A stretch of DNA of 64,000 nucleotides from Flavobacterium sp. LC2016-23 (GTDB taxonomy: Bacteria; Bacteroidota; Bacteroidia; Flavobacteriales; Flavobacteriaceae). The notes below the pieces were generated by a model. That model worked only from the letters and a program-made list of their open reading frames with translations. It ran no database searches and was not told where the DNA came from. Positions 4,382 to 14,139 of this stretch are shown here, piece after piece (the stretch's first letter is position 1; each line of letters begins with the position of its first letter). The translations under genes were made by a program, and so were the position numbers. The stretch is taken from assembly GCF_009674775.1 (NCBI RefSeq), contig NZ_WKKE01000006.1:124001-188000 (forward strand). Reading direction: 5' to 3'.

Positions 4382-4591
4382 TTAATCTTCCCAACCGCAA
4401 AGCGTCAGTCCGTAGCCCTGAGCCTGGGAAACAGTTACTTTTGTCAATTCATGTCGGCAGGCTGTTAGTCCGCGGCAGTTTTCATTATAATGGTATTTTT
4501 TTGCTCCTACAGGACCACAGATATACACTTTGGTTTCTACAGGATGAAAAGAGGTGAGGAGCATCAATAGCAGGAGAGGGGCATATTTCAT
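4382..4591 (-). CDS. Small secreted Cys/His-containing protein
   Basis: The 69-aa product has an N-terminal signal peptide (KYAPLLLLMLLTSF). The short mature domain reads KVYICGPVGAKKYHYNENC, then RGLTACRHEL and a C-terminal LTLCGWED. Four Cys plus His in the spacing C..HYNENC..C.H could bind a metal or form disulfides. I know similar short exported proteins from flavobacteria but no assigned function. Start is the only ATG before the signal peptide. Confidence 0.7.
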   Translation of the reverse strand: MKYAPLLLLMLLTSFHPVETKVYICGPVGAKKYHYNENCRGLTACRHELTKVTVSQAQGYGLTLCGWED

Positions 4592-4610: not shown

Positions 4611-5018
4611 TTAATCGACTATTAAAAAGTATTCATTGGCCTGATGATCTTTTGCTTTTAGTTTTCCCTGACCAATCCATTCCGTTTTAATTTCAATATC
4701 GGGAATGGTATCGAAACGCAGTATTCCCGCACCATTTTTACCCTGAACATTAATATTTCCAAAAACAGAATCCCCTTTCGAATTAACCCCTTTTACATCA
4801 TAGTTGTACTCGTAATGACCCGATTTACCTGTCCTGTATTCGTACTGATAATCGGTATCAACATGATAGGTTTTAGCTTCTTCCGGCGTAATAATTTTTC
4901 GGTCATTGGCGGTAATGGCTTCTTTGTAGAAGGTATTTATTTTGGGGGGCTGTACCACTTTTTTGCAGCCGGTTAGCAGGGAAAGAAATAGAAAGGGAAA
5001 GAGTAGTTTTTTAATCAT
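4611..5018 (-). CDS. Hypothetical lipoprotein
   Basis: The 135-aa product has a lipoprotein signal peptide (LFPFLFLSLLTGC), placing Cys18 as the lipidation site. The rest is beta-rich and polar, with YQYEYRTGKSGHYEYNYDVKG and ending NEYFLIVD. No family is recognised. It lies on the minus strand just upstream of the 69-aa secreted protein with a 19-base gap, so the two may share a transcript. Confidence 0.65.
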   Translation of the reverse strand: MIKKLLFPFLFLSLLTGCKKVVQPPKINTFYKEAITANDRKIITPEEAKTYHVDTDYQYEYRTGKSGHYEYNYDVKGVNSKGDSVFGNINVQGKNGAGILRFDTIPDIEIKTEWIGQGKLKAKDHQANEYFLIVD

Positions 5019-5158: not shown

Positions 5159-6217
5159 TTAAACAGTGTCATAACTATCAATCGTTTCCAGTAATTCTTT
5201 TTCAAATGAATAAATATCATCAATGGTTTGAATGGGCTGACGAACTTCACTTTTGTTATCATTGAAAAGACCTATGTATTTTTTGCTCCCGTTCAGATGT
5301 AACCGGCAAATAGGCTTACGGTTATTATCATCGAGCAGCACTCCAAAATAAGACTGCGTATCCCGATAAACAATTCGGCCCACCGGAAGTTTTCGTCTCA
5401 GGATAGCCACTACAATTCGGTAGCCATCCAGTTCTTCTTCGGTGGTCAGAATTTTGTTGTCCTCGGGAATTATAACTTCTTCAGATTCTTCTTTTTGCTT
5501 TTGACTTTCTTTTGTAATCGCTGCATTTAAACGGTCGTTTATTTTTTCGCTGATAAATTGATTAAACCCTTTTTGTACCAATTCTTTAAATTCATCGACT
5601 ACTTTTTCCGTTAGTCTTCCCGTGTATACTTTGTTGGCAAACAATTTTACAAATTCGTTTGATGGACTTTGCAATTCATTGTCAATCTGTTTCTTTATTT
5701 CGGTTGTATATTTCAGCAAACTGGCATTGCTTACAATTTTATTGACATCAAAATTCGACTTATGAAATTTGGTGATTTCACTGATGGCATTGTCTTTTAA
5801 GCTTGTGATGTCAAATTCTAAAAATGGTTTTTCATCCATTTTGTTTTTTTCATCCAGATCAGTAAAAAACTGATACGTAATTCCGTTCGTTAAAAGGGCA
5901 AATCGTGTTTTGGTCACATGAAAATAACGGAATAACTGAGAATTATGAATGGTAAGTTTCTCTTTCCAGCTTTTGCATTCAATAATCAATATCGGTGCGC
6001 CATCCTGAAAAATAGCATAATCTACTTTTTCTCCCTTTTTCAGGCCCAGGTCGGCCGTAAATTCAGGGACAACTTCTGTCGGATTAAAAGTATCATAACC
6101 CAGTATGTTGATAAAAGGCAAAACAAAAGCATGTTTGGTCGATTCTTCTGTTTCGATTTTATCTTTTAGCAATATAATTTTATCTGCTAAGGCTTTAAGC
6201 TGAATGTTGATTTCCAT
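5159..6217 (-). CDS. PD-(D/E)xK nuclease-like protein related to type I restriction R subunit N-terminus
   Basis: The 352-aa protein starts with an HsdR_N-like domain. The nuclease core is visible as KVDYAIFQDGAPILIIECKSW: Asp66, Glu80 and Lys82 fit the D-x(n)-E-x-K active site. The helicase motor of a full HsdR (about 1000 aa) is absent, and no HsdM or HsdS gene is nearby, so it is an orphan nuclease-like protein rather than part of a normal restriction system. Residues 150-245 are helical and charged; the last 100 (ILTTEEELDGYRIVVAILRR onward) form a separate domain often found fused to this nuclease fold. One of three copies of a shared regulatory palindrome lies 63 bases upstream of the start. 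Actual nuclease activity is inference. Confidence 0.8.
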   Translation of the reverse strand: MEINIQLKALADKIILLKDKIETEESTKHAFVLPFINILGYDTFNPTEVVPEFTADLGLKKGEKVDYAIFQDGAPILIIECKSWKEKLTIHNSQLFRYFHVTKTRFALLTNGITYQFFTDLDEKNKMDEKPFLEFDITSLKDNAISEITKFHKSNFDVNKIVSNASLLKYTTEIKKQIDNELQSPSNEFVKLFANKVYTGRLTEKVVDEFKELVQKGFNQFISEKINDRLNAAITKESQKQKEESEEVIIPEDNKILTTEEELDGYRIVVAILRRKLPVGRIVYRDTQSYFGVLLDDNNRKPICRLHLNGSKKYIGLFNDNKSEVRQPIQTIDDIYSFEKELLETIDSYDTV

Positions 6218-6251: not shown

Positions 6252-6301
6252 CAAATGTAAAACCAATAAAAATCAGGAGTTTATGGAAAACCGTAAATCG
6301 G
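6252..6301 (-). promoter_or_regulatory. Promoter with TTAYGG-N4-CCRTAA palindrome (copy 2 of 3)
   Basis: Reading the minus strand, CCG, two bases, the dyad TTACGGTTTTCCATAA (6281-6296), 21 bases, then the -7 box TACATTTG (6252-6259). The nuclease-like gene starts 34 bases further down. Copies at 9823-9872 and 12717-12766 have the same order and the same 21-bp spacing. The likely binder is the response regulator encoded at 9946-10614, by proximity only. Confidence 0.7.
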
Positions 6302-6332
6302 GAAATATTTAGCGGTTTTTTACAAGGGCTGC

Positions 6333-6362
6333 AAAAAAAAAGAGGATTATAAAAATCCTCTT
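6333..6362 (-). terminator. Rho-independent terminator of the vWA-TerB operon
   Basis: Read on the minus strand: a 9-bp stem AAGAGGATT / AATCCTCTT with a 5-base loop, followed by eight T. It lies 32 bases after the stop of the vWA-like lipoprotein gene. Confidence 0.8.
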
Positions 6363-6393
6363 GATACGTAGTTTTATTTCAATTTGCTGTCAA

Positions 6394-7296
6394 TTAATGC
6401 TGATTTTCCACTATAAAATCCCTGATGATCTTTTCCATATTAGAGGGTAAATCGGCATTTTTGATTTCGAAATGTTTGACTTTCATTTCAGAAAACCATT
6501 TTGCCCAGTAGGCTTTTATCACTTTCTCCTCATACGGATTATTTTTACCGGGATTAATTCCTAAAACCAGCACTTCCAGATTCGATAAATCATCTCCGGC
6601 TTTGATAAAACCAAAATCCTCTTTTTTAAATTTTTGCTCCCAGTCCTTCGTATTCAATCCATTTTTTCGAATAAAATCGGGCGTAATAAAAGTCGTTCGG
6701 TTGGCTTCTTTCATTATGGTGCTGTCGTAATACATATAACCGTCGGTTAAGATGACCAGTATATTGCGTTCTCCTTTTTCAATACATTGGTCTTTTACTT
6801 TAGTATCAAAAAAACTCCAGATATCCGAGCCAACAAAGTTATTGTCTTTTAGGGCCGATTCGTAGATTTTTGAGGTTCGGGCAGCATAATCGGAGTTGAT
6901 AGAATTCAGCAAATCCTTCGAAGCATTATTTTTATCAATAGCAATTTTCAGCTTTTGTGAAATCGAATTGATCTCCGGATCTTTTGGCTCGGGATTAAAA
7001 AACAATTGCATTTTATCATCAATCTGGCGTATTCTTTTGGATTTTAAATGGTGCGTAAAAGCCTCTGAAACCGATTTTATGTATCCCAAATCCCGCTGAT
7101 AATATTCCATCGTCGGATTTGGATTTTTTTCAACACTAATCCGGTCTGATAAGTCCAGAAGAATGCTAATGTTATAATTTTCTGCGGGAGGATTTTTAGT
7201 TACCGTTTCTTTTTCGTCTTTATCAGCATCGGGTTTGCAGGAAAAAGCAGAAAGGAATAACAAGCAGAGCGCGAATGTTTTCAGTATTTTTTTCAT
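6394..7296 (-). CDS. vWA-like lipoprotein
   Basis: The 300-aa product has a lipoprotein signal (LCLLFLSAFSC, Cys20). The folded part resembles a von Willebrand A domain: a first strand with a MIDAS-like ISILLDLSDRIS (Asp-x-Ser arrangement) and a later strand NILVILTDGYMYYDS carrying the conserved Asp after a hydrophobic strand. That suggests a metal-dependent protein-binding surface anchored to a membrane. It is last in a close-packed run on the minus strand (3-base gap to the membrane protein before it) and is followed by a terminator. Domain call is by motif only. Confidence 0.6.
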   Translation of the reverse strand: MKKILKTFALCLLFLSAFSCKPDADKDEKETVTKNPPAENYNISILLDLSDRISVEKNPNPTMEYYQRDLGYIKSVSEAFTHHLKSKRIRQIDDKMQLFFNPEPKDPEINSISQKLKIAIDKNNASKDLLNSINSDYAARTSKIYESALKDNNFVGSDIWSFFDTKVKDQCIEKGERNILVILTDGYMYYDSTIMKEANRTTFITPDFIRKNGLNTKDWEQKFKKEDFGFIKAGDDLSNLEVLVLGINPGKNNPYEEKVIKAYWAKWFSEMKVKHFEIKNADLPSNMEKIIRDFIVENQH

Positions 7297-7299
7297 AAA

Positions 7300-8568
7300 T
7301 TAATTTTTAAAATATACCAAATGCTGAAAGTCCGGATCGGTTAAGTTTAGCTTACTCAGATGTTCTTCAGAATGAAGTTCACAGTTTTCCAATAGTTCTG
7401 TTTTTTCTTTATGAGCCAAAGCGATTTCCGTATTGATGGCCTGAAACCAGCCTTCCTTGTATTGGTGATGGTAGTGCAGGTATTCTTTTACGGGAAATAC
7501 AAATCCATCAATTTTAGACTGAAGTTCAGCGATTTTTCCGGTAATGGTAATCACCTGTTGTTTGAAGTCATTGGTCTTGTTGATGTAATCTTTTTTTAGT
7601 TTTTCCAGGTCAAGAAGATTTTCTTTTTTACCTCTTATAAAAGCCCTGATTTTATCAATGTTTTCAAATTCCTTCATGACAAAATCAAAAACAAGTCCCC
7701 AAATGATGTAGACCACAAATCCGGCAAAAATGATCATCCAGAATTCCGCTTCTCCCAAAGCAATATTTAAATTATACAGTGCCGAGTCTGTTGTTTTATT
7801 AAACTCATAAATCTTCTTTTCGATCTGGTAAGCCAGCAGGGCATCAAACAAAAAGGTGGTCAGGAACAAAGCAATCATTCTAAAGACATTTTTAATACCT
7901 TTCCCTTTCTGAACCATATGAATGACATAGCCTAGTCCCATAAAGACAAACGGAATAGTGACTACCAAAACACCTTCAAGCCAGCTGGCCTTAAAGGAAT
8001 TGGTCAGTGCGTCCGCATCAAAAATGGCGGCCGTTAAGCTATCATTGGCAAACTCTTTAAAAAAGGCAGAATAAGAAGCCGAAATATAAAAAACCAGGAC
8101 ATAAAGCGTTATGGGAAGAAGCAAAAACAAACCGATATAAAACTGGACTTTCAGGCCTTTTCCGTCCTCGATTCCGTATTTGTCGGGATTGCGTTTTACT
8201 TCGATAATTTCATTTTTGATCTGGTCGACACTATCATTGATATCCTGTTCTTTCTTTTCGTAAATGCCAATCGCCGCTTCGCATTTCTTAAGCTCCGTTC
8301 TGTTTTTTTCCTGCTCTTCGCGATACGGCTGCTTCAGTCTGTCCTGTTCCAGTTTTTGTTTTCGGCACTGGTCTTCAAAACTCATATACAGGTTCTGGAG
8401 ACAGGCTTTCAGTACAATGGGTTTTCCGGTTGCTTTAATAGAAGCAGCGAATCCGCTTTGGTAGTAGGTGATTCTGATTTGTTCTCTGTCTTCTTCATTG
8501 TCCTCAAAGAGACTGAAGGAAGAATCCTCGGTTTTTTTCAGGCTGAATAGTTGTGTAAGTGATTTCAT
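7300..8568 (-). CDS. Polytopic membrane protein with coiled-coil arms
   Basis: The 422-aa product has a charged N-terminal coiled coil (about 70-135, rich in K/E/Q), four hydrophobic segments near 147-168, 195-218, 228-249 and 275-298, and a second coiled coil from about 305 to 360 before a soluble tail. No signal peptide is seen. I do not recognise a family. Its gene sits 3 bases from both neighbours (vWA lipoprotein and TerB-like protein), which argues for a joint membrane complex. Confidence 0.6.
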   Translation of the reverse strand: MKSLTQLFSLKKTEDSSFSLFEDNEEDREQIRITYYQSGFAASIKATGKPIVLKACLQNLYMSFEDQCRKQKLEQDRLKQPYREEQEKNRTELKKCEAAIGIYEKKEQDINDSVDQIKNEIIEVKRNPDKYGIEDGKGLKVQFYIGLFLLLPITLYVLVFYISASYSAFFKEFANDSLTAAIFDADALTNSFKASWLEGVLVVTIPFVFMGLGYVIHMVQKGKGIKNVFRMIALFLTTFLFDALLAYQIEKKIYEFNKTTDSALYNLNIALGEAEFWMIIFAGFVVYIIWGLVFDFVMKEFENIDKIRAFIRGKKENLLDLEKLKKDYINKTNDFKQQVITITGKIAELQSKIDGFVFPVKEYLHYHHQYKEGWFQAINTEIALAHKEKTELLENCELHSEEHLSKLNLTDPDFQHLVYFKN

Positions 8569-8571
8569 AAG

Positions 8572-8967
8572 CTACGCATTTAATTGACTAATAATTTCTT
8601 CTTTTTGAATGTTTTTCTGCACACAATCAATGAGATAGTTCGATAAATCAGTGATGTTTTCGTCCAGGAAATTAAACTTCCTGCAATACTTTTTCAGCAT
8701 ATTCAATTCATCATCAGTAATTTTTCCGTCCGCCCAGATGATTCTTGTAAAATCATATAAGTATTCTATTCGTGTGGTCAGCTCTTCCGGGACAACAAAT
8801 TCTGTATTCACCGGATTCTGGAAAAGTTTATCGAGTTCCTCTTTCGGAATGCCGCGTTCATCGGCAAAATGATACAGCATTTGAAGTTCTAAAACATCAA
8901 ACTGATCATCGGATAAGGCCATTTGATACAATCTTAGGAAATGGCTTTTAAGTTCTAGTGTTATCAT
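8572..8967 (-). CDS. TerB-like helical protein
   Basis: The 131-aa all-helical protein has the TerB-family pattern of paired acidic helices: LYQMALSDDQFDVLELQMLY and later IIWADGKITDDELNMLKKYC. In both, an Asp-x-x-x-x-x-E-L motif begins a helix, as in tellurite-resistance TerB and relatives that sit with vWA proteins and membrane partners. Soluble, no signal. It is translated 3 bases before the membrane protein. A role in tellurite resistance should not be assumed, since most TerB-like proteins have other, unknown stress roles. Confidence 0.65.
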   Translation of the reverse strand: MITLELKSHFLRLYQMALSDDQFDVLELQMLYHFADERGIPKEELDKLFQNPVNTEFVVPEELTTRIEYLYDFTRIIWADGKITDDELNMLKKYCRKFNFLDENITDLSNYLIDCVQKNIQKEEIISQLNA

Positions 8968-8978
8968 GTTTATAATTT

Positions 8979-9311
8979 TTATTTAGGCAAATTTTCACAG
9001 GCAATTCCGTCTCCGTCAGCATCTAGGTTTTTATAACAGTTTGTATTGCTGTTATAGGCAGATTGTGCAGCGGACTGAGATGAAAAATCACCGCAGGTTT
9101 TAGTTGGACAATTTGAATTTGATTTGGACGGCTTATCTGATGAGTCTGCAGATGAATCTGAACAAGACATTGGCAGACCTAATAACAAGCCTGCTAAAAG
9201 AATTACCAGACAGCCGTTATTTTTATTTGAAAATGATTTGGATCTGTTATTGGCATAATGTCCCTGAACATAAGTCCCGTCTTTTCTGTAATATCCTTTT
9301 CGGTATCCCAT
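8979..9311 (-). CDS. Excalibur-domain protein with one membrane segment
   Basis: The 110-aa product has a basic N-terminus (GYRKGYYRKDGTYVQGHY), a hydrophobic stretch (CLVILLAGLLLGLPMSC, about 34-50), a Ser/Asp-rich linker, and a C-terminal excalibur calcium-binding domain (CPTKTCGDF, then NLDADGDGIACENLP), where the DxDxDG loop and paired Cys are intact. The Cys at 50 could also be a lipidation site, although it lies far from the N-terminus. It sits between the DUF4236 and TerB-like genes with gaps of 2 and 11 bases. Confidence 0.75.
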   Translation of the reverse strand: MGYRKGYYRKDGTYVQGHYANNRSKSFSNKNNGCLVILLAGLLLGLPMSCSDSSADSSDKPSKSNSNCPTKTCGDFSSQSAAQSAYNSNTNCYKNLDADGDGIACENLPK

Positions 9312-9313
9312 AA

Positions 9314-9544
9314 TTAGATATGTTTTATTGTATAAATTAAAAATGTTATGACTCCTGTAAATAGAAAGAATACCATACAGCCACTATTCTGGTATCGTAC
9401 TCCGGATATACCGGTTTTGGTCGAATAGCCATTTTTGCTAAAAATTCCCATTTTTGTTCTTAAACTTGGAGAAATTCCGGATCTACTGATGTTTAATCCA
9501 AGTCCTCCTCCAAGTTTTACTCTTTTTTGAAATCGAAAGCCCAT
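9314..9544 (-). CDS. DUF4236-domain small protein
   Basis: The 76-aa protein has the DUF4236 pattern: GFRFQKRVKLGGGLGLNISRSG, then GISPSLRTKMGIFSKNGYS and GISGVRY, a compact Gly-rich beta domain. A single C-terminal membrane segment follows (CMVFFLFTGVITFLIYTI). The function of DUF4236 is unknown. The next gene starts 2 bases later. The 91 bases upstream separate it from the 52-aa secreted peptide gene, with no terminator seen, so it is probably read from the promoter at 9823-9872. Confidence 0.75.
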   Translation of the reverse strand: MGFRFQKRVKLGGGLGLNISRSGISPSLRTKMGIFSKNGYSTKTGISGVRYQNSGCMVFFLFTGVITFLIYTIKHI

Positions 9545-9635
9545 GATTTTTTAGGTTTAGTTAATTAAAGTTTTTTATTATACAGAAACTTCTTTTGACG
9601 TTTCCCGTTTTCATGTCAATCGAAGTCAGGAATAG

Positions 9636-9794
9636 TTATTTCCTCTTTTTATAGTGGTTATTAGTACTTGAATTTTTATACTTCCCACCTTTATGGGAAC
9701 TACCTTTTCCACTTTTATAATGACCACTTTGGGCTTCAACACTACCTCCTAAAACCAGGAAGAATAAACTAAACAAAACGACTAATTTTTTCAT
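9636..9794 (-). CDS. Small secreted Gly/Lys/His/Ser-rich peptide (52 aa)
   Basis: Too short for most gene callers, but well supported. ATG at 9794 begins KKLVVLFSLFFLVLGGSVEA, a clear signal peptide with cleavage near Ala-Gln, leaving about 30 residues, with SGHYKSGKGSSHKGGKYK and ending NNHYKKRK. The mature peptide is strongly basic with repeated HYK and SGK/KGG motifs. A promoter with the island's shared palindrome and a TAAGTTTG box ends 28 bases before the ATG. It may be the first gene of the run down to 6394. Confidence 0.7.
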   Translation of the reverse strand: MKKLVVLFSLFFLVLGGSVEAQSGHYKSGKGSSHKGGKYKNSSTNNHYKKRK

Positions 9795-9822
9795 AATTTT
9801 ATTTTTTAAATGATTAATTATC

Positions 9823-9872
9823 CAAACTTAAACCTATTTAAAACCAGTATTTTACGGAAAACCATAATCCGG
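9823..9872 (-). promoter_or_regulatory. Promoter with TTAYGG-N4-CCRTAA palindrome (copy 3 of 3)
   Basis: On the minus strand: CCG, two bases, the dyad TTATGGTTTTCCGTAA (9852-9867), 21 bases, and the -7 box TAAGTTTG (9823-9830). The 52-aa secreted peptide gene starts at 9794. The dyad is an upstream element at a fixed distance from the -7 box, as expected for an activator site. Confidence 0.7.
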
Positions 9873-9893
9873 ATTATTTTAATTTCCGGCCAT

Positions 9894-9917
9894 AAAAAAA
9901 GCCCCCGAAGGAGCTTG
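9894..9917 (-). terminator. Rho-independent terminator of the kinase/regulator operon
   Basis: On the minus strand AAGCTCC-TTCG-GGGGCTT followed by seven T, with a stable UUCG-type loop and one G-T pair. It lies 28 bases after the response regulator stop. Confidence 0.85.
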
Positions 9918-9945
9918 ATAGAGTAGTAACATTATGGTAATGAGA

Positions 9946-10614
9946 CTAAATAATCCCCATATCTTTTGTAATCGAAACCAAATGAATGGTATTATTGGCC
10001 TTAAAAAAGTCTTTGAGTTTTGAAAGCCTTTTTTCGATCGCACTTTTGCTGTTGGGCTTTACTTCCAGGCTTTTAAAAATTTCTATAATTTCATCTTGTG
10101 AAGTGCCTGATGCCAGGTGTTTTAGGATTTGAATGTCAACATCGTCCATTTCGAAATTATTTTTTTCCTGTAAGGCCGAAGCTACTTCAGGCGAAATAAA
10201 GGTCTGATCTGAAGTGGAGACCATATGGATGGCTTTTTTTAGTTCTTCGATACTGTTAAGCCCTTTCAGCACAAAGGCATCAATTCCTGAATTGTCGAAA
10301 AGGGATTTAATACGATAGCTTTTATCTTCGACGGAAAAAGCGATAATTTTAATATCCGGCTGTAAATCTCGTACTTTCTGAATCAATTCGTCACCGTCTT
10401 TAATTTTCACCTCGCGATGCCCTGTTTTGAATGACAGATCACTAATGAGCAGATCATAGGGTTCATTTTGATTAATGGCGGCGCGCATTTTCAGAAATGC
10501 TTCATCGCAATATTTGGAGTGTTGAAAATTTACAATATTTAAATCTTTTAAGACTTGTTCAATTCCTAAACTGATGGCATCAACGTCTTCGGCTACAATT
10601 ACTTTTTTAAACAT
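9946..10614 (-). CDS. Response regulator, receiver plus LuxR-like HTH
   Basis: The 222-aa protein has a receiver domain at 3-130 with the acidic pocket (AED at 8-10), phospho-acceptor Asp59 in YDLLISDL, and the conserved Lys in FVLKG. The C-terminal part (about 155-210: ILKHLASGTSQDEIIEIF then KSAIEKRLSKLKDFF) is a helix-turn-helix of LuxR/NarL type. Its gene starts 6 bases after the TPR kinase stop, so the two form a pair. It is the best candidate to bind the TTACGG-N4-CCGTAA palindromes found only in this part of the window. Confidence 0.85.
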   Translation of the reverse strand: MFKKVIVAEDVDAISLGIEQVLKDLNIVNFQHSKYCDEAFLKMRAAINQNEPYDLLISDLSFKTGHREVKIKDGDELIQKVRDLQPDIKIIAFSVEDKSYRIKSLFDNSGIDAFVLKGLNSIEELKKAIHMVSTSDQTFISPEVASALQEKNNFEMDDVDIQILKHLASGTSQDEIIEIFKSLEVKPNSKSAIEKRLSKLKDFFKANNTIHLVSITKDMGII

Positions 10615-10620
10615 ATAGAG

Positions 10621-12345
10621 TTATTTAGGCATAGTTATTTTTACTTTGAAACCTTTCCCTGGTTCTGTATCAAAAATAATAGATCCTTTCATGGCCAGAA
10701 TACGGTTTTCCATATTCTGAAGACCATTTTTAATAATTTTATTTTTTTCGGCTCCTTTTCCGTTGTCGCTGTAATTAATCAGGATAGAATTGTCCGAAGT
10801 GTCAAACTTTACGACCACAACAGAAGCACCGCTGTGTTTTTTCATATTGACCATTAATTCCTGTAAAACCCTGTAGATGGCTACCTTTTTTAAGTCGTCA
10901 ACATCCTCCCAATTGGCATTTTCGATGCTGGTAATAATTACGTTGGTACCTTCAGTATTAGTAGTACGTTCAATATTATAGGTAGAAAGCATTTCTTTCA
11001 AATTTACAGCATAATTGAGTTTAGTATCAATGGTATTGTTTTCCCTCGAAATTCTGCGAACCCGTGCATAAATATGATCCAGTTTCTGAATCAGTGTTTC
11101 TTTATTTTCCGTATCTAAGGATTGTGTCTGCGTAAATGTCATTGCATTAAAAACATCATTGGCCAGTTCATCGTGAATATCTTTGGCAATTCTGGTTTCG
11201 GTGTCGTAGGCTGTTTTTATTTTTTCAATCCGATTTCGCTTTCTGAGATAAAGAACAAAAAAGAAAAGTGCCAAAATGCCAATTATAAAAAAGATACGTT
11301 GGTATTTTACTTTCTGCAGCGATAATAAGTTTTCAGCCCGTTCTAATTTCAGTTTCTGATTCTCTTCTTTTTCCTTTTTGGAATCGTACTTAATCTTGGC
11401 AAATTTGTTTTTGAAATTGTTTCGGATTTTGATGATGCTATCGTTTATAACAATGTATTTTTGAGCATACTGAGTACCCGAACCATTCGAAATTAAAAAA
11501 GACAATGCTTTCAGCCGTTCATCAACACTATTGAATTTGGTGGCAAGTTCATAGGCCATCTGTGCATTTTGATTTGATTTTGCAAGATTAGTTCGGGAAT
11601 AATATTCGGCTAAATGGAGGTAGCTTTCAATGCTTCCGTACGGATCTTCAATCTGTTTTCTTAAGGCAAGGCTTTCCTTCATAAACGCAAGCCCTTTGTC
11701 CTCCATTCCATTTTTAAAATAAGCGAAACCCAGATTGTCCAGTACCCTGGCTTTACTTTTGTGGATTTCGGGCGATCTTTTATCTGCTATTTTATCGCTT
11801 AAAATATTGCTCTTTACTATGGATTCTAAAATAGCTATCGCCTCAGGATATTTTTTTTGTTTGATATAGACAACGGCAATATTATTTAAAGGCGCTTGTT
11901 TTGATAGTGTATCTTTTGAATCTTTAATGGCTTTCTTATAATAAAGTATGGCATCATCGTATAAGGAAAGTTCCTTATCTGCAATACCAAAAAAATTATT
12001 GATCGCTACTCCGTAGTTGTTGTCATTTTTAAGGTAGGGCAGTGATTCGGTTAAGGTTTCCTTGCTGCCATAATAATCGCCGTTTATTTGCTGGATATAT
12101 GCCATCTGCATCAAATTGTAGACAATATTGGCGCTATCCTTATAGGTTTCAAATGTTATTTTTGATTTATTAAAGTAATAGAAGGCACTATTAAAGTTGC
12201 TTTTTTGTAAATTAGAAAAACCCTTCTCCTGAAGTATTTTGGCTTCTTTGGTGAAGCGGGTAGGATCAATCGGTGTAGTGCTATGCTCATTGCAGGAAAG
12301 CAAAAAGAGAGAAACGAATAAATACAAAAACGGGGACCGTAGCAT
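10621..12345 (-). CDS. TPR-repeat sensor histidine kinase (lipoprotein-type N-terminus)
   Basis: The 574-aa protein begins with a lipoprotein-like signal (LYLFVSLFLLSC, Cys19). Several TPR repeats follow over about 30-280 (GFSNLQKSNFNSAFYYFNKS, NIAVVYIKQKKYPEAI, NLGFAYFKNGMEDKGLAFM), then a coiled coil (305-345), one membrane helix (351-367), a HisKA_3-type phosphorylation site (AKDIHDELAND, His391) and an HATPase domain with NMKKH, SDNGKG and GLQNMENR motifs. The sensor half is periplasmic and the kinase cytoplasmic. It is the partner of the regulator 6 bases downstream. The signal sensed is unknown. Confidence 0.85.
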   Translation of the reverse strand: MLRSPFLYLFVSLFLLSCNEHSTTPIDPTRFTKEAKILQEKGFSNLQKSNFNSAFYYFNKSKITFETYKDSANIVYNLMQMAYIQQINGDYYGSKETLTESLPYLKNDNNYGVAINNFFGIADKELSLYDDAILYYKKAIKDSKDTLSKQAPLNNIAVVYIKQKKYPEAIAILESIVKSNILSDKIADKRSPEIHKSKARVLDNLGFAYFKNGMEDKGLAFMKESLALRKQIEDPYGSIESYLHLAEYYSRTNLAKSNQNAQMAYELATKFNSVDERLKALSFLISNGSGTQYAQKYIVINDSIIKIRNNFKNKFAKIKYDSKKEKEENQKLKLERAENLLSLQKVKYQRIFFIIGILALFFFVLYLRKRNRIEKIKTAYDTETRIAKDIHDELANDVFNAMTFTQTQSLDTENKETLIQKLDHIYARVRRISRENNTIDTKLNYAVNLKEMLSTYNIERTTNTEGTNVIITSIENANWEDVDDLKKVAIYRVLQELMVNMKKHSGASVVVVKFDTSDNSILINYSDNGKGAEKNKIIKNGLQNMENRILAMKGSIIFDTEPGKGFKVKITMPK

Positions 12346-12404
12346 GATAGTTACTTTCCCCGAATTTACTAATTAATACTAAAAATAGTACCTAAAATAA
12401 AATA

Positions 12405-12584
12405 TTATTTTGGTGGCGGTAAAACAATTACCGGCTGGTCACCAGGTCCATCAGCATAAGACGGTACAGGATTAATTTTCTTTTGAACCTCTTTTGTGGC
12501 CGGAGTATCTAATTCATCTGCTGTGCAGGAAAATAATGTAGTTGTCAATAATGCAAACGCTCCCAATATCATTAATTTTTTCAT
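12405..12584 (-). CDS. Small lipoprotein with Pro-rich tail
   Basis: I place the start at the second Met (12584), because KKLMILGAFALLTTTLFSC is a normal lipoprotein signal and the eight codons before it would spoil it. The product is 59 aa. The mature part is short, with SYADGPGDQPVIVLPPPK at the end. It sits 59 bases before the TPR kinase on the same strand with no terminator between, so it may be the first gene of that operon, possibly a periplasmic partner of the kinase (inference). Confidence 0.6.
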   Translation of the reverse strand: MKKLMILGAFALLTTTLFSCTADELDTPATKEVQKKINPVPSYADGPGDQPVIVLPPPK

Positions 12585-12604
12585 GATTATAAAGTTTAAA
12601 AATG

Positions 12605-12740
12605 ACATAGGTATGGCCGTCCGGATTCTGTCCGGAGCTTGTAAACAATACCTATGAGGTGGGAAGTGAAGTGCGTAGAACTATAAGATTTTCATCTATA
12701 CTTCCCGGGATAAACTCCGTCTTACGGTTTTCCGCACTTG
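12605..12740. other. Intergenic region with three inverted-repeat pairs
   Basis: The 334-base space between 12584 and 12919 holds CATAGGTAT / ATACCTATG, GGGAAGT / ACTTCCC and AAGTGCG / CGCACTT, plus two direct TCCGGA copies. They could form the folded leader of the minus-strand lipoprotein transcript. The right edge overlaps the palindromic promoter that faces the plus-strand gene. Confidence 0.4.
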
Positions 12741-12766
12741 TTAATTGAACTAGTTTTGTACATTTG
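12717..12766 (+). promoter_or_regulatory. Promoter with TTAYGG-N4-CCRTAA palindrome (copy 1 of 3)
   Basis: On the plus strand: CCG, two bases, the dyad TTACGGTTTTCCGCAC (12722-12737), 21 bases, -7 box TACATTTG (12759-12766). Orientation points to the gene at 12919, leaving a leader of roughly 145 bases that contains a 28-codon ATG frame (12805-12891) of doubtful meaning and several TTCCTGAG/AATTCC repeats. Confidence 0.7.
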
Positions 12767-12918
12767 TTTTTGACCTGCAGATCAAAACGTTAACTAATTT
12801 TGTTATGGCAAAGATGCGACGCTTACAACCCTGCATTGACAAGGAATTCCCGGAATTCCTGCTGTTTCCTGAGTTTCCTAATTGTTCCTGAGAATTCCTA
12901 AAAAATCCTGAATGCCTT

Positions 12919-13854
12919 ATGCAAAAAATTACTTTTGAAGATTATAAAAATGCTGTGAGAGCAAAATTTGAGATTGAAAGAGAAGGCGTATATTTTAATT
13001 TTTTGACGCCTCCATCACAAGCCAATCTTAGAAATTTATGTTGGGAAAGATTTAAGTCAAACAGTAATAAAGATGATTTAAGTACTTTCTCTTCTTTCTT
13101 TGAATTTGAATTTGATCCCGAAAAGAAGAATCATTTTAGGGAGCAAACAGATCGATTTAGACCGATCGGCAGTTTCTTAAGAGGAGAAAAAGATCCGGCT
13201 AACCGATTTGCTGTAGAATTGGCAGCAGTTTTAGTTGATTTTCAACCGCGACCTTTTAGAAAATATAAAGAAAGAGGTATAGTGACAGTAGAAAATCCAA
13301 TTGACAGCCCTAAAATTCCTTTTGCATTTGCAATAAAAGAAGAAAATAATGAAGAAAAAGACGAAAGGGAAGAAGGTGAAAGAAAAAATAAATTTGAAAA
13401 TGCATTGATCGCTACTAGTCGATTTAATTATATCGAAAATTTAAGAGCCAGGTTTTCAGACAACTTCAAAAAGAAAGTAAAGTTTATTACAATAGGAGTT
13501 TTAGTTGTTTTTGGCTTGGGATTTATCATAAGCCGTTATGCTTTTCCAAAAAAACAATGTATGCAATGGTCTAATGATCATTATGAAAAAGTAGATTGTG
13601 ATTTAAGTGCAAACGGATTAATCCCTTTTACAATTGAACCATTTGATGAGATCAAGTTTGAACTAAAAAAAATTAAGGTGTGTGATACTACTACTTGTTT
13701 TAAAAATGGAAAACCAATTATCTGGTATGCCAAGACAGGTGATGCAGCAGATTTTTTTAATACCCACGGTATACATCCTGAAAATGAGAAAGCATTAAGA
13801 CCCGTTACACAATATATCTTTAACAAATACAAAAAACCATGCGGTTCAAAATAA
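12919..13854 (+). CDS. Membrane-anchored protein of unknown function
   Basis: The 311-aa product has a charged cytoplasmic N-terminal domain (1-185; FEDYKNAVRAKFEIEREG, SFLRGEKDPANRFAVELAAV), one membrane helix at about 191-210 (FITIGVLVVFGLGFIISRYA) and an outer C-terminal domain of about 100 aa with Cys at CDTTTCF and a GHIP-like HGIHPENEKALRPVTQYI segment. I do not recognise the family. It is controlled by the plus-facing copy of the island's shared promoter, so it probably belongs to the same response as the genes at 5159-9794. Confidence 0.65.
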   Translation: MQKITFEDYKNAVRAKFEIEREGVYFNFLTPPSQANLRNLCWERFKSNSNKDDLSTFSSFFEFEFDPEKKNHFREQTDRFRPIGSFLRGEKDPANRFAVELAAVLVDFQPRPFRKYKERGIVTVENPIDSPKIPFAFAIKEENNEEKDEREEGERKNKFENALIATSRFNYIENLRARFSDNFKKKVKFITIGVLVVFGLGFIISRYAFPKKQCMQWSNDHYEKVDCDLSANGLIPFTIEPFDEIKFELKKIKVCDTTTCFKNGKPIIWYAKTGDAADFFNTHGIHPENEKALRPVTQYIFNKYKKPCGSK

Positions 13855-13905
13855 AAAAAGCGGATATACCAAATAAGTATATCCGCTTTTTTTTCGCCAA
13901 TCTAA
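13820..13905 (+). repeat. 86-bp direct repeat, left copy (gene end plus terminator)
   Basis: Covers the last 35 bases of the 311-aa gene, its stop codon and its terminator (stem AAAGCGGATATAC / GTATATCCGCTTT then T8). The same 86 bases recur at 14054-14139 with one substitution in the T-run. The repeat therefore copied a gene end and its terminator. Confidence 0.9.
13854..13894 (+). terminator. Rho-independent terminator of the 311-aa gene
   Basis: A stem of at least 14 bp around AAGCGGATATAC, loop CAAATAA, then eight T. It begins at the stop codon. A second copy stands at 14088-14128 inside the right repeat, behind no gene. Confidence 0.85.
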
Positions 13906-14054: not shown

Positions 14055-14139
14055 TAACAAATACAAAAAACCATGCGGTTCAAAATAAAAAAAGCGGATA
14101 TACCAAATAAGTATATCCGCTTTTTTATCGCCAATCTAA
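14054..14139 (+). repeat. 86-bp direct repeat, right copy
   Basis: Duplicate of 13820-13905, offset by 234 bases, one mismatch (T to A in the T-run). It contains the orphan end of the 311-aa gene and a second terminator. The near-identity means the duplication is recent or maintained by recombination. Confidence 0.9.

Follow-up and report, generated by a model that had tools for sequence, protein, structure and literature searches.

A response regulator of 222 amino acids (aa) and the TPR sensor kinase beside it, encoded in a 64,000-nucleotide stretch of the Flavobacterium sp. LC2016-23 genome (NCBI RefSeq assembly GCF_009674775.1, contig NZ_WKKE01000006.1, positions 124,001 to 188,000; the whole stretch is called the window below), appear to act through a palindromic operator that is held exactly 21 base pairs (bp) from a TAnnTTTG -7 box and is dispersed over many Bacteroidota genomes. 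Comparative sequence evidence makes it very probable that this operator and this regulator belong together and that the regulon is real. The explanation as a whole, in which the regulator, driven by the kinase, activates a dispersed defence regulon, is likely; binding, activation and signal are what we infer.

A sequence-only reading of the window had described three dyads and three TAnnTTTG boxes, and both their coordinates and the 21 bases from dyad to box were recovered unchanged at all three sites. The two regulatory genes and these sites are as follows.

9946-10614, minus strand: response regulator, 222 aa, NarL/FixJ (RcsB-like) fold
10621-12345, minus strand: TPR sensor kinase, 574 aa, HATPase_c domain
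6281-6301, minus strand: operator 1, CCGATTTACGGTTTTCCATAA, ahead of the gene for the HSDR_N nuclease-like protein
6252-6259, minus strand: -7 box of promoter 1, TACATTTG, 21 bp past operator 1
9852-9872, minus strand: operator 2, CCGGATTATGGTTTTCCGTAA, just 3' of the regulator gene and at the head of the secreted-protein/TerB run
9823-9830, minus strand: -7 box of promoter 2, TAAGTTTG, 21 bp past operator 2
12717-12737, plus strand: operator 3, CCGTCTTACGGTTTTCCGCAC, divergent, with a degenerate right arm, heading the gene for a 311-aa membrane protein
12759-12766, plus strand: -7 box of promoter 3, TACATTTG, 21 bp past operator 3

Operators with a degeneracy similar to that of operator 3 precede homologues (L049, G065). 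On rescanning, the window yielded no further intergenic copy, in agreement with the earlier reading, which had also held the pattern to be always intergenic and the regulon to be local. Neither of these two descriptions survived: a fourth copy lies within the kinase gene (10671-10715, minus strand), and copies are dispersed genome-wide and across Flavobacterium, Chryseobacterium and Pedobacter, before many phage-defence systems and in viral contigs. The full pattern as first described, CCGNNTTAYGGTTTTCCRYA-N22-TANNTTTG, has three copies with at most two mismatches in the whole 5,391,218-base genome, all of them in the window; the only copy with three mismatches (C3:10517-10566) lies 15 bp past the end of the regulator's one close paralogue, and the pattern read backwards has no match in the genome. 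Since a looser core consensus has four exact copies and four with one mismatch in this genome, among them an exact one at C3:223962 and the four with one mismatch elsewhere, the regulon extends past the window.

Enrichment of the spaced pair in relatives had been set as a test beforehand, and the outcome was strongly positive: exact TTACGG-N4-CCGTAA-N21-TAnnTTTG is present in 212 of 399 Flavobacterium genomes, and the reversed pattern in none. When gaps of 8-38 were allowed, the gap was exactly 21 in 132 of the 150 matches listed, the other 18 being scattered over other lengths. The zero reversed matches and the spacing peak bear out the earlier judgement that three such matches are very unlikely to arise by chance. 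Some matches with one mismatch are indeed coding, for example ...AAAATTATTAGCAAAAAGTAACGCACCTTTG with the in-frame reading LRKTVKLLAKSNAPL, and the family with this reading was set aside; weighed against the lack of reversed matches, the peak at 21 and the fact that long reading frames contain none of 69 out of 71 viral copies, chance or coding coincidence has a negligible probability as an explanation of the motif. An insertion element or other repeat was rejected because the spacer and flanks vary freely and only the palindrome, the gap and the box are fixed.

A set of 148 genomes from the order shows the motif in two families only, one of them that of the window, with controls at zero. A blind DNA scan of the genomes of 84,980 species returned at least 119 stretches with the motif, and the 80 titles listed are Bacteroidota except for two contigs of one 'Bifidobacterium' metagenome-assembled genome; one of these two, with homologues of both kinase and regulator, is probably a misbinned contig. 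Genera among the matches listed include Flavobacterium, Chryseobacterium, Elizabethkingia, Pedobacter, Sphingobacterium, Mucilaginibacter and Winogradskyella.

The pairing with the regulator was assessed in 111 genomes of the genus with a regulator homologue (E ≤ 1e-20) and 88 without. At least one copy with up to one mismatch occurs in 107 of the 111 regulator-bearing genomes versus 21 of the 88 regulator-free ones, with means of 5.8 and 0.45 copies, respectively, and a backwards control of about 0.23 in both groups. At 28 loci picked by the regulator alone, with the motif ignored, a site with up to one mismatch lies 14 to ~400 bp 3' of the regulator in 22 (24 if two mismatches are allowed); upstream windows of equal length at these loci gave one match. 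In most homologous loci a kinase homologue precedes the regulator, and a kinase or regulator homologue is found in 54 of 119 stretches from the blind scan. A strain of Flavobacterium johnsoniae (L141) has both the kinase-regulator pair and an exact site. The close paralogue also has an operator behind it, which heads genes for an 84-aa membrane protein and an EEP-like nuclease, a cluster that recurs across the genus (L029, L037).

G000:C3:9842-10507: paralogous regulator, 52% identity to the window regulator, its only close paralogue

Co-occurrence and loci thus lend strong support to the earlier proposal that the palindrome at its fixed distance goes with the TPR kinase and the 222-aa regulator encoded next to it.

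The fourth site was missed in the sequence-only reading, where the pattern was restricted to intergenic DNA. Taken whole, ATATGGAAAACCGTAT-N21-TATTTTTG, it carries two mismatches.

10700-10715, minus strand: operator 4, ATATGGAAAACCGTAT, in the 3'-terminal part of the kinase gene, 101 bp ahead of the regulator ATG
10671-10678, minus strand: -7 box of operator 4, TATTTTTG, 21 bp past operator 4

This copy was first assumed to be a coding coincidence, a view that codon analysis overturned. An operator with the exact 21-bp gap is kept in 84 of 92 distinct kinase-regulator junctions (up to four mismatches). The arginine codon at the site is CGT in 54 of 65 alignable kinases, whereas in the same genes CGT has a background of 12.5% and AGA one of 43%; the corresponding P value of 4e-38 assumes an independence that is not strictly valid. 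The codon before this arginine (Asn, Ser or Thr) has C as its third base in 63 of the 65 kinases versus 19 expected, and the left-arm codon has G there in 62 of 65 although its residue varies (Val, Ala, Met, Thr). Codon choice is biased while the residue varies: the hidden site is under selection at the DNA level as a putative operator, and is no by-product of the protein. Its position suggests that it controls the regulator itself, that is, autoregulation.

Three points weigh against this pairing of operator and regulator. The Fisher P value for their co-occurrence (5e-29) is overstated, as are the P values in general, because related species are not independent. Nine exact copies occur in six of the 88 genomes without a close regulator, and therefore another factor may read the motif or the units may have come by transfer. 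The flanks also differ, near-regulator copies extending as CCGTAAGG and distal copies as CCGTAAAA, so that the targets may be divided among paralogues, or the core shared with a second factor. The exact copies in six genomes and the differing flanks, together with carriage by phages, which is typical of SOS-like repressors, would suit a palindrome whose reader is another DNA-binding protein (one-component repressor or SOS-like factor) that merely co-occurs with the two-component system. This is improbable in view of the tight co-occurrence, the site immediately 3' of the regulator in species that were not selected by motif, the hidden site ahead of the regulator, the copy behind the paralogue, the palindromes that adjoin more distant homologues where a genome has no close regulator, and a position of -49 to -34 (derived below) that fits an activator better than a repressor. 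An SOS/LexA-type reading was rejected since most regulator-free genomes are without sites and the position suits an activator.

In regulator-free genomes that encode more distant homologues of the regulator, the motif is mostly absent. Beside distant homologues in G150 and G212 stand TTACGGGAAACCGTAA palindromes, in tandem or repeated, that lack the exact 21-bp TAnnTTTG (L330 2177-2728; L335 ~1430-1492). Two contigs from genomes with no close regulator, G081:C1 and G194:C4, hold near-identical exact copies, TTACGG..CCGTAATATAGTTAGAGAAAGTTTTAATATGTTTG, three of them in G081. The regulator homologues at G207:C33:37855-38457 and G203:C1:2886194-2886754 each contain two in-frame TGA codons and are possibly decayed.

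D10, D59 and K117 of the regulator, which correspond to the receiver acidic pocket, the phospho-acceptor Asp and the conserved Lys, are invariant in 50 homologues, and Pfam Response_reg scores 30.1 bits against a cut-off of 30.2. The AlphaFold model (predicted local distance difference test, pLDDT, 91.8) has four C-terminal helices past a linker, and gives full-length structural matches, the closest being spr1814, RcsB, LiaR and VraR; a profile search matches the same chains. The earlier label 'LuxR-type regulator' holds for the fold, which is NarL/LuxR-type by model and profile, although no Pfam LuxR/GerE match was returned. A WYL domain was likewise not matched in the regulator, the model being a receiver plus a helix-turn-helix. 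By eye, the N-terminus of the kinase resembles a lipoprotein signal (LLSC).

In Flavobacterium psychrophilum, the -7 box spans -12 to -5 and has the consensus TAnnTTTG (PMC9723704). The boxes at the window sites fit this Bacteroidota sigma-A -7 consensus. With the box at -12 to -5 and a 21-bp gap, the 16-bp palindrome is computed to lie at -49 to -34, centred at about -41.5. A centre at -41.5 is the classical position of a class II activator, and because the operator geometry fits this position, it is quite likely that the regulator acts as an activator and not as a repressor.

A mechanism is proposed in which TTAYGG-N4-CCRTAA would be the operator of the neighbouring NarL/RcsB-fold regulator. 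The TPR sensor kinase would phosphorylate the regulator, which would then bind as a dimer, with its centre near -41.5, and activate sigma-A promoters with a -7 box exactly 21 bp further on, in a class II manner that substitutes for a good -33 element. The operator within the kinase coding sequence would autoregulate the regulator and the operator behind the regulator gene would drive the linked cluster. Elsewhere, the operator-promoter unit would head unlinked operons, many of them for phage defence, and would be carried by temperate phages too.

Target families were counted by clustering across 260 distinct sites. The most frequent are HSDR_N nuclease-like proteins (24), EEP-like nucleases (19), a 110-aa family (16) and the 135-aa lipoprotein-like family of the window (15), followed by the window TerB family, PLD-like nucleases and HsdM-like methyltransferases (8 each) and the window 311-aa family (5); the EEP and PLD labels are readings of the sequences, and PLD has domain-search support. 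When HSDR_N genes were chosen without the motif, 22 of 30 had it upstream, including 20 of the 21 with at least 74% identity. Genes directly after unlinked sites encode GajA of Gabija (E 4e-277), GajB, SspB, SspC, ZorA, ZorB, Cas9, Cas6b, a type I methyltransferase, DUF4297, HamA of Hachiman, a CBASS 2TM effector and a CBASS cyclase. Families at distal sites comprise SMODS, AbiGi, putAbiC, Mrr, BrxC, HSDR_N and DNA_methylase (a cytosine methylase), whereas random genes of the genus belong mainly to housekeeping families.

The exact unit with a gap of 21 was also found in 70 viral contigs (L350-L419) and a version with a 16-bp gap in one; the reversed pattern was absent from the viral contigs. 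Because the controls are close to zero and the copies lie nearly all outside long frames (2 of 71 are within reading frames of at least 150 aa), phages carry real copies. The contigs are apparently Bacteroidota phages or prophages. Their copies mostly precede small uncharacterised genes, with two ahead of helix-turn-helix-like proteins, and may serve the phages' own exclusion genes or a response to host alarm.

Since the unit heads many phage-defence operons and is carried by temperate phages, the regulon probably coordinates inducible defence or conflict genes, and we have moderate confidence in a defence role. Some results speak against such a role. PADLOC at 1e-15 recognized 7 of 20 distal first genes versus 2 of 10 controls in a small random sample, a difference that alone is not significant; it names no window target gene with confidence, and many targets are small uncharacterised secreted proteins. 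Counting established defence systems only, the small random sample gave 5 of 20 versus 0 of 10. The apparent defence excess leans more on the kind of families found than on sample counts.

The regulator could instead bind these sites as part of a general envelope or Ter-type stress response, with defence genes caught because variable islands acquire any inducible promoter. The core targets would suit this, being secreted or lipoprotein-like proteins, TerB, TerD, DUF4236, Excalibur and nuclease-like proteins that include known defence only in part, as would a kinase sensor that looks extracytoplasmic and the fact that the closest folds are RcsB and VraR, which are envelope-stress regulators. 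However, genuine defence systems of many unrelated types have the motif directly upstream, HSDR_N nuclease-like proteins top the list of targets, and the motif is present in viral contigs; we therefore regard a general stress response as the less likely explanation, although one with appreciable weight.

Coordination of defence remains the preferred role for the regulon, and the window genes are core members of it, because their families recur at operators elsewhere.

5159-6217, minus strand: HSDR_N nuclease-like protein, 352 aa; operator 1 target; the family seen most often at operators elsewhere
4611-5018, minus strand: lipoprotein-like protein, 135 aa; probably in operon 1; family at 14 operators
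4382-4591, minus strand: Cys-rich secreted-like protein, 69 aa; family at 10 operators
9636-9794, minus strand: secreted-like peptide, 52 aa; first gene past operator 2
9314-9544, minus strand: 76-aa protein; family at 9 operators, where larger relatives are DUF4236
8979-9311, minus strand: Excalibur-domain protein, 110 aa; family at 5 operators
8572-8967, minus strand: TerB-like protein, 131 aa; family at 8 operators
7300-8568, minus strand: membrane protein, 422 aa; family at 4 operators
6394-7296, minus strand: lipoprotein-like protein, 300 aa; family at 4 operators
12919-13854, plus strand: membrane protein, 311 aa; operator 3 target; family at 5 operators, as first gene every time

Two further features around the 311-aa gene were noted by eye. 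A 28-codon reading frame between promoter 3 and this gene (window 12805-12891) could be a leader peptide, and a ~70-bp direct repeat (window 13824-13895 / 14055-14128) is an apparent duplication of the 3' end of the gene plus a terminator hairpin.

The regulator shares with the NarL/FixJ proteins RcsB, VraR, LiaR and spr1814 a receiver plus C-terminal helix-turn-helix, the conserved phosphorylation residues, a neighbouring histidine kinase and an inverted-repeat operator. It differs from them in its identity of ~20%, the lack of a Pfam LuxR/GerE match, the fixed distance of 21 bp between TTACGG-N4-CCGTAA and a Bacteroidota -7 box, and the many defence systems among its targets. BrxR/CapW-type WYL regulators (PMC9122601, PMC9122589) are likewise factors on inverted repeats tied to diverse phage-defence systems, but BrxR is a WYL-domain repressor encoded within its island, and repressors of this type act mostly inside one island (PMC9122601), whereas the present two-component system would act on unlinked promoters and is probably an activator. 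Two-component-like elements with Response_reg_2 and paraMORC ATPases (PMC8011034) also link two-component parts to restriction-modification genes; they sit with those genes, whereas the promoters of the TPR-kinase/regulator pair are dispersed genome-wide. Rsm/Csr, a global regulator of CRISPR-Cas in Serratia (PMC8450108), is similar in that one host pathway coordinates several immune systems, but it is post-transcriptional, belongs to Gammaproteobacteria and has no dedicated operator common to many defence types. No earlier description of the operator or regulon was found in the open-access papers searched.

A broader proposal, to which we give slightly less than an even chance, is a dedicated dispersed immune regulon of flavobacteria and their relatives. 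One TPR-kinase/RcsB-like pair would turn on defence systems of unrelated kinds (CRISPR-Cas, restriction-modification, Gabija, Ssp, Hachiman, Zorya and CBASS) through a portable operator-promoter unit that is acquired by new defence genes, autoregulated through the hidden operator and captured by temperate phages to read the host alarm. How bacteria coordinate their many defence systems is poorly known, and this regulon may turn on immune genes together. If so, the operator could be read from the DNA to predict which immune genes are inducible in any flavobacterium, and new defence genes could be found by their promoter, with the HSDR_N protein, EEP nuclease, 311-aa and 135-aa families as candidates. 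It would also offer a way to ask whether an envelope-facing kinase senses infection, and the promoter copies in phages suggest that phages monitor this signal as well.

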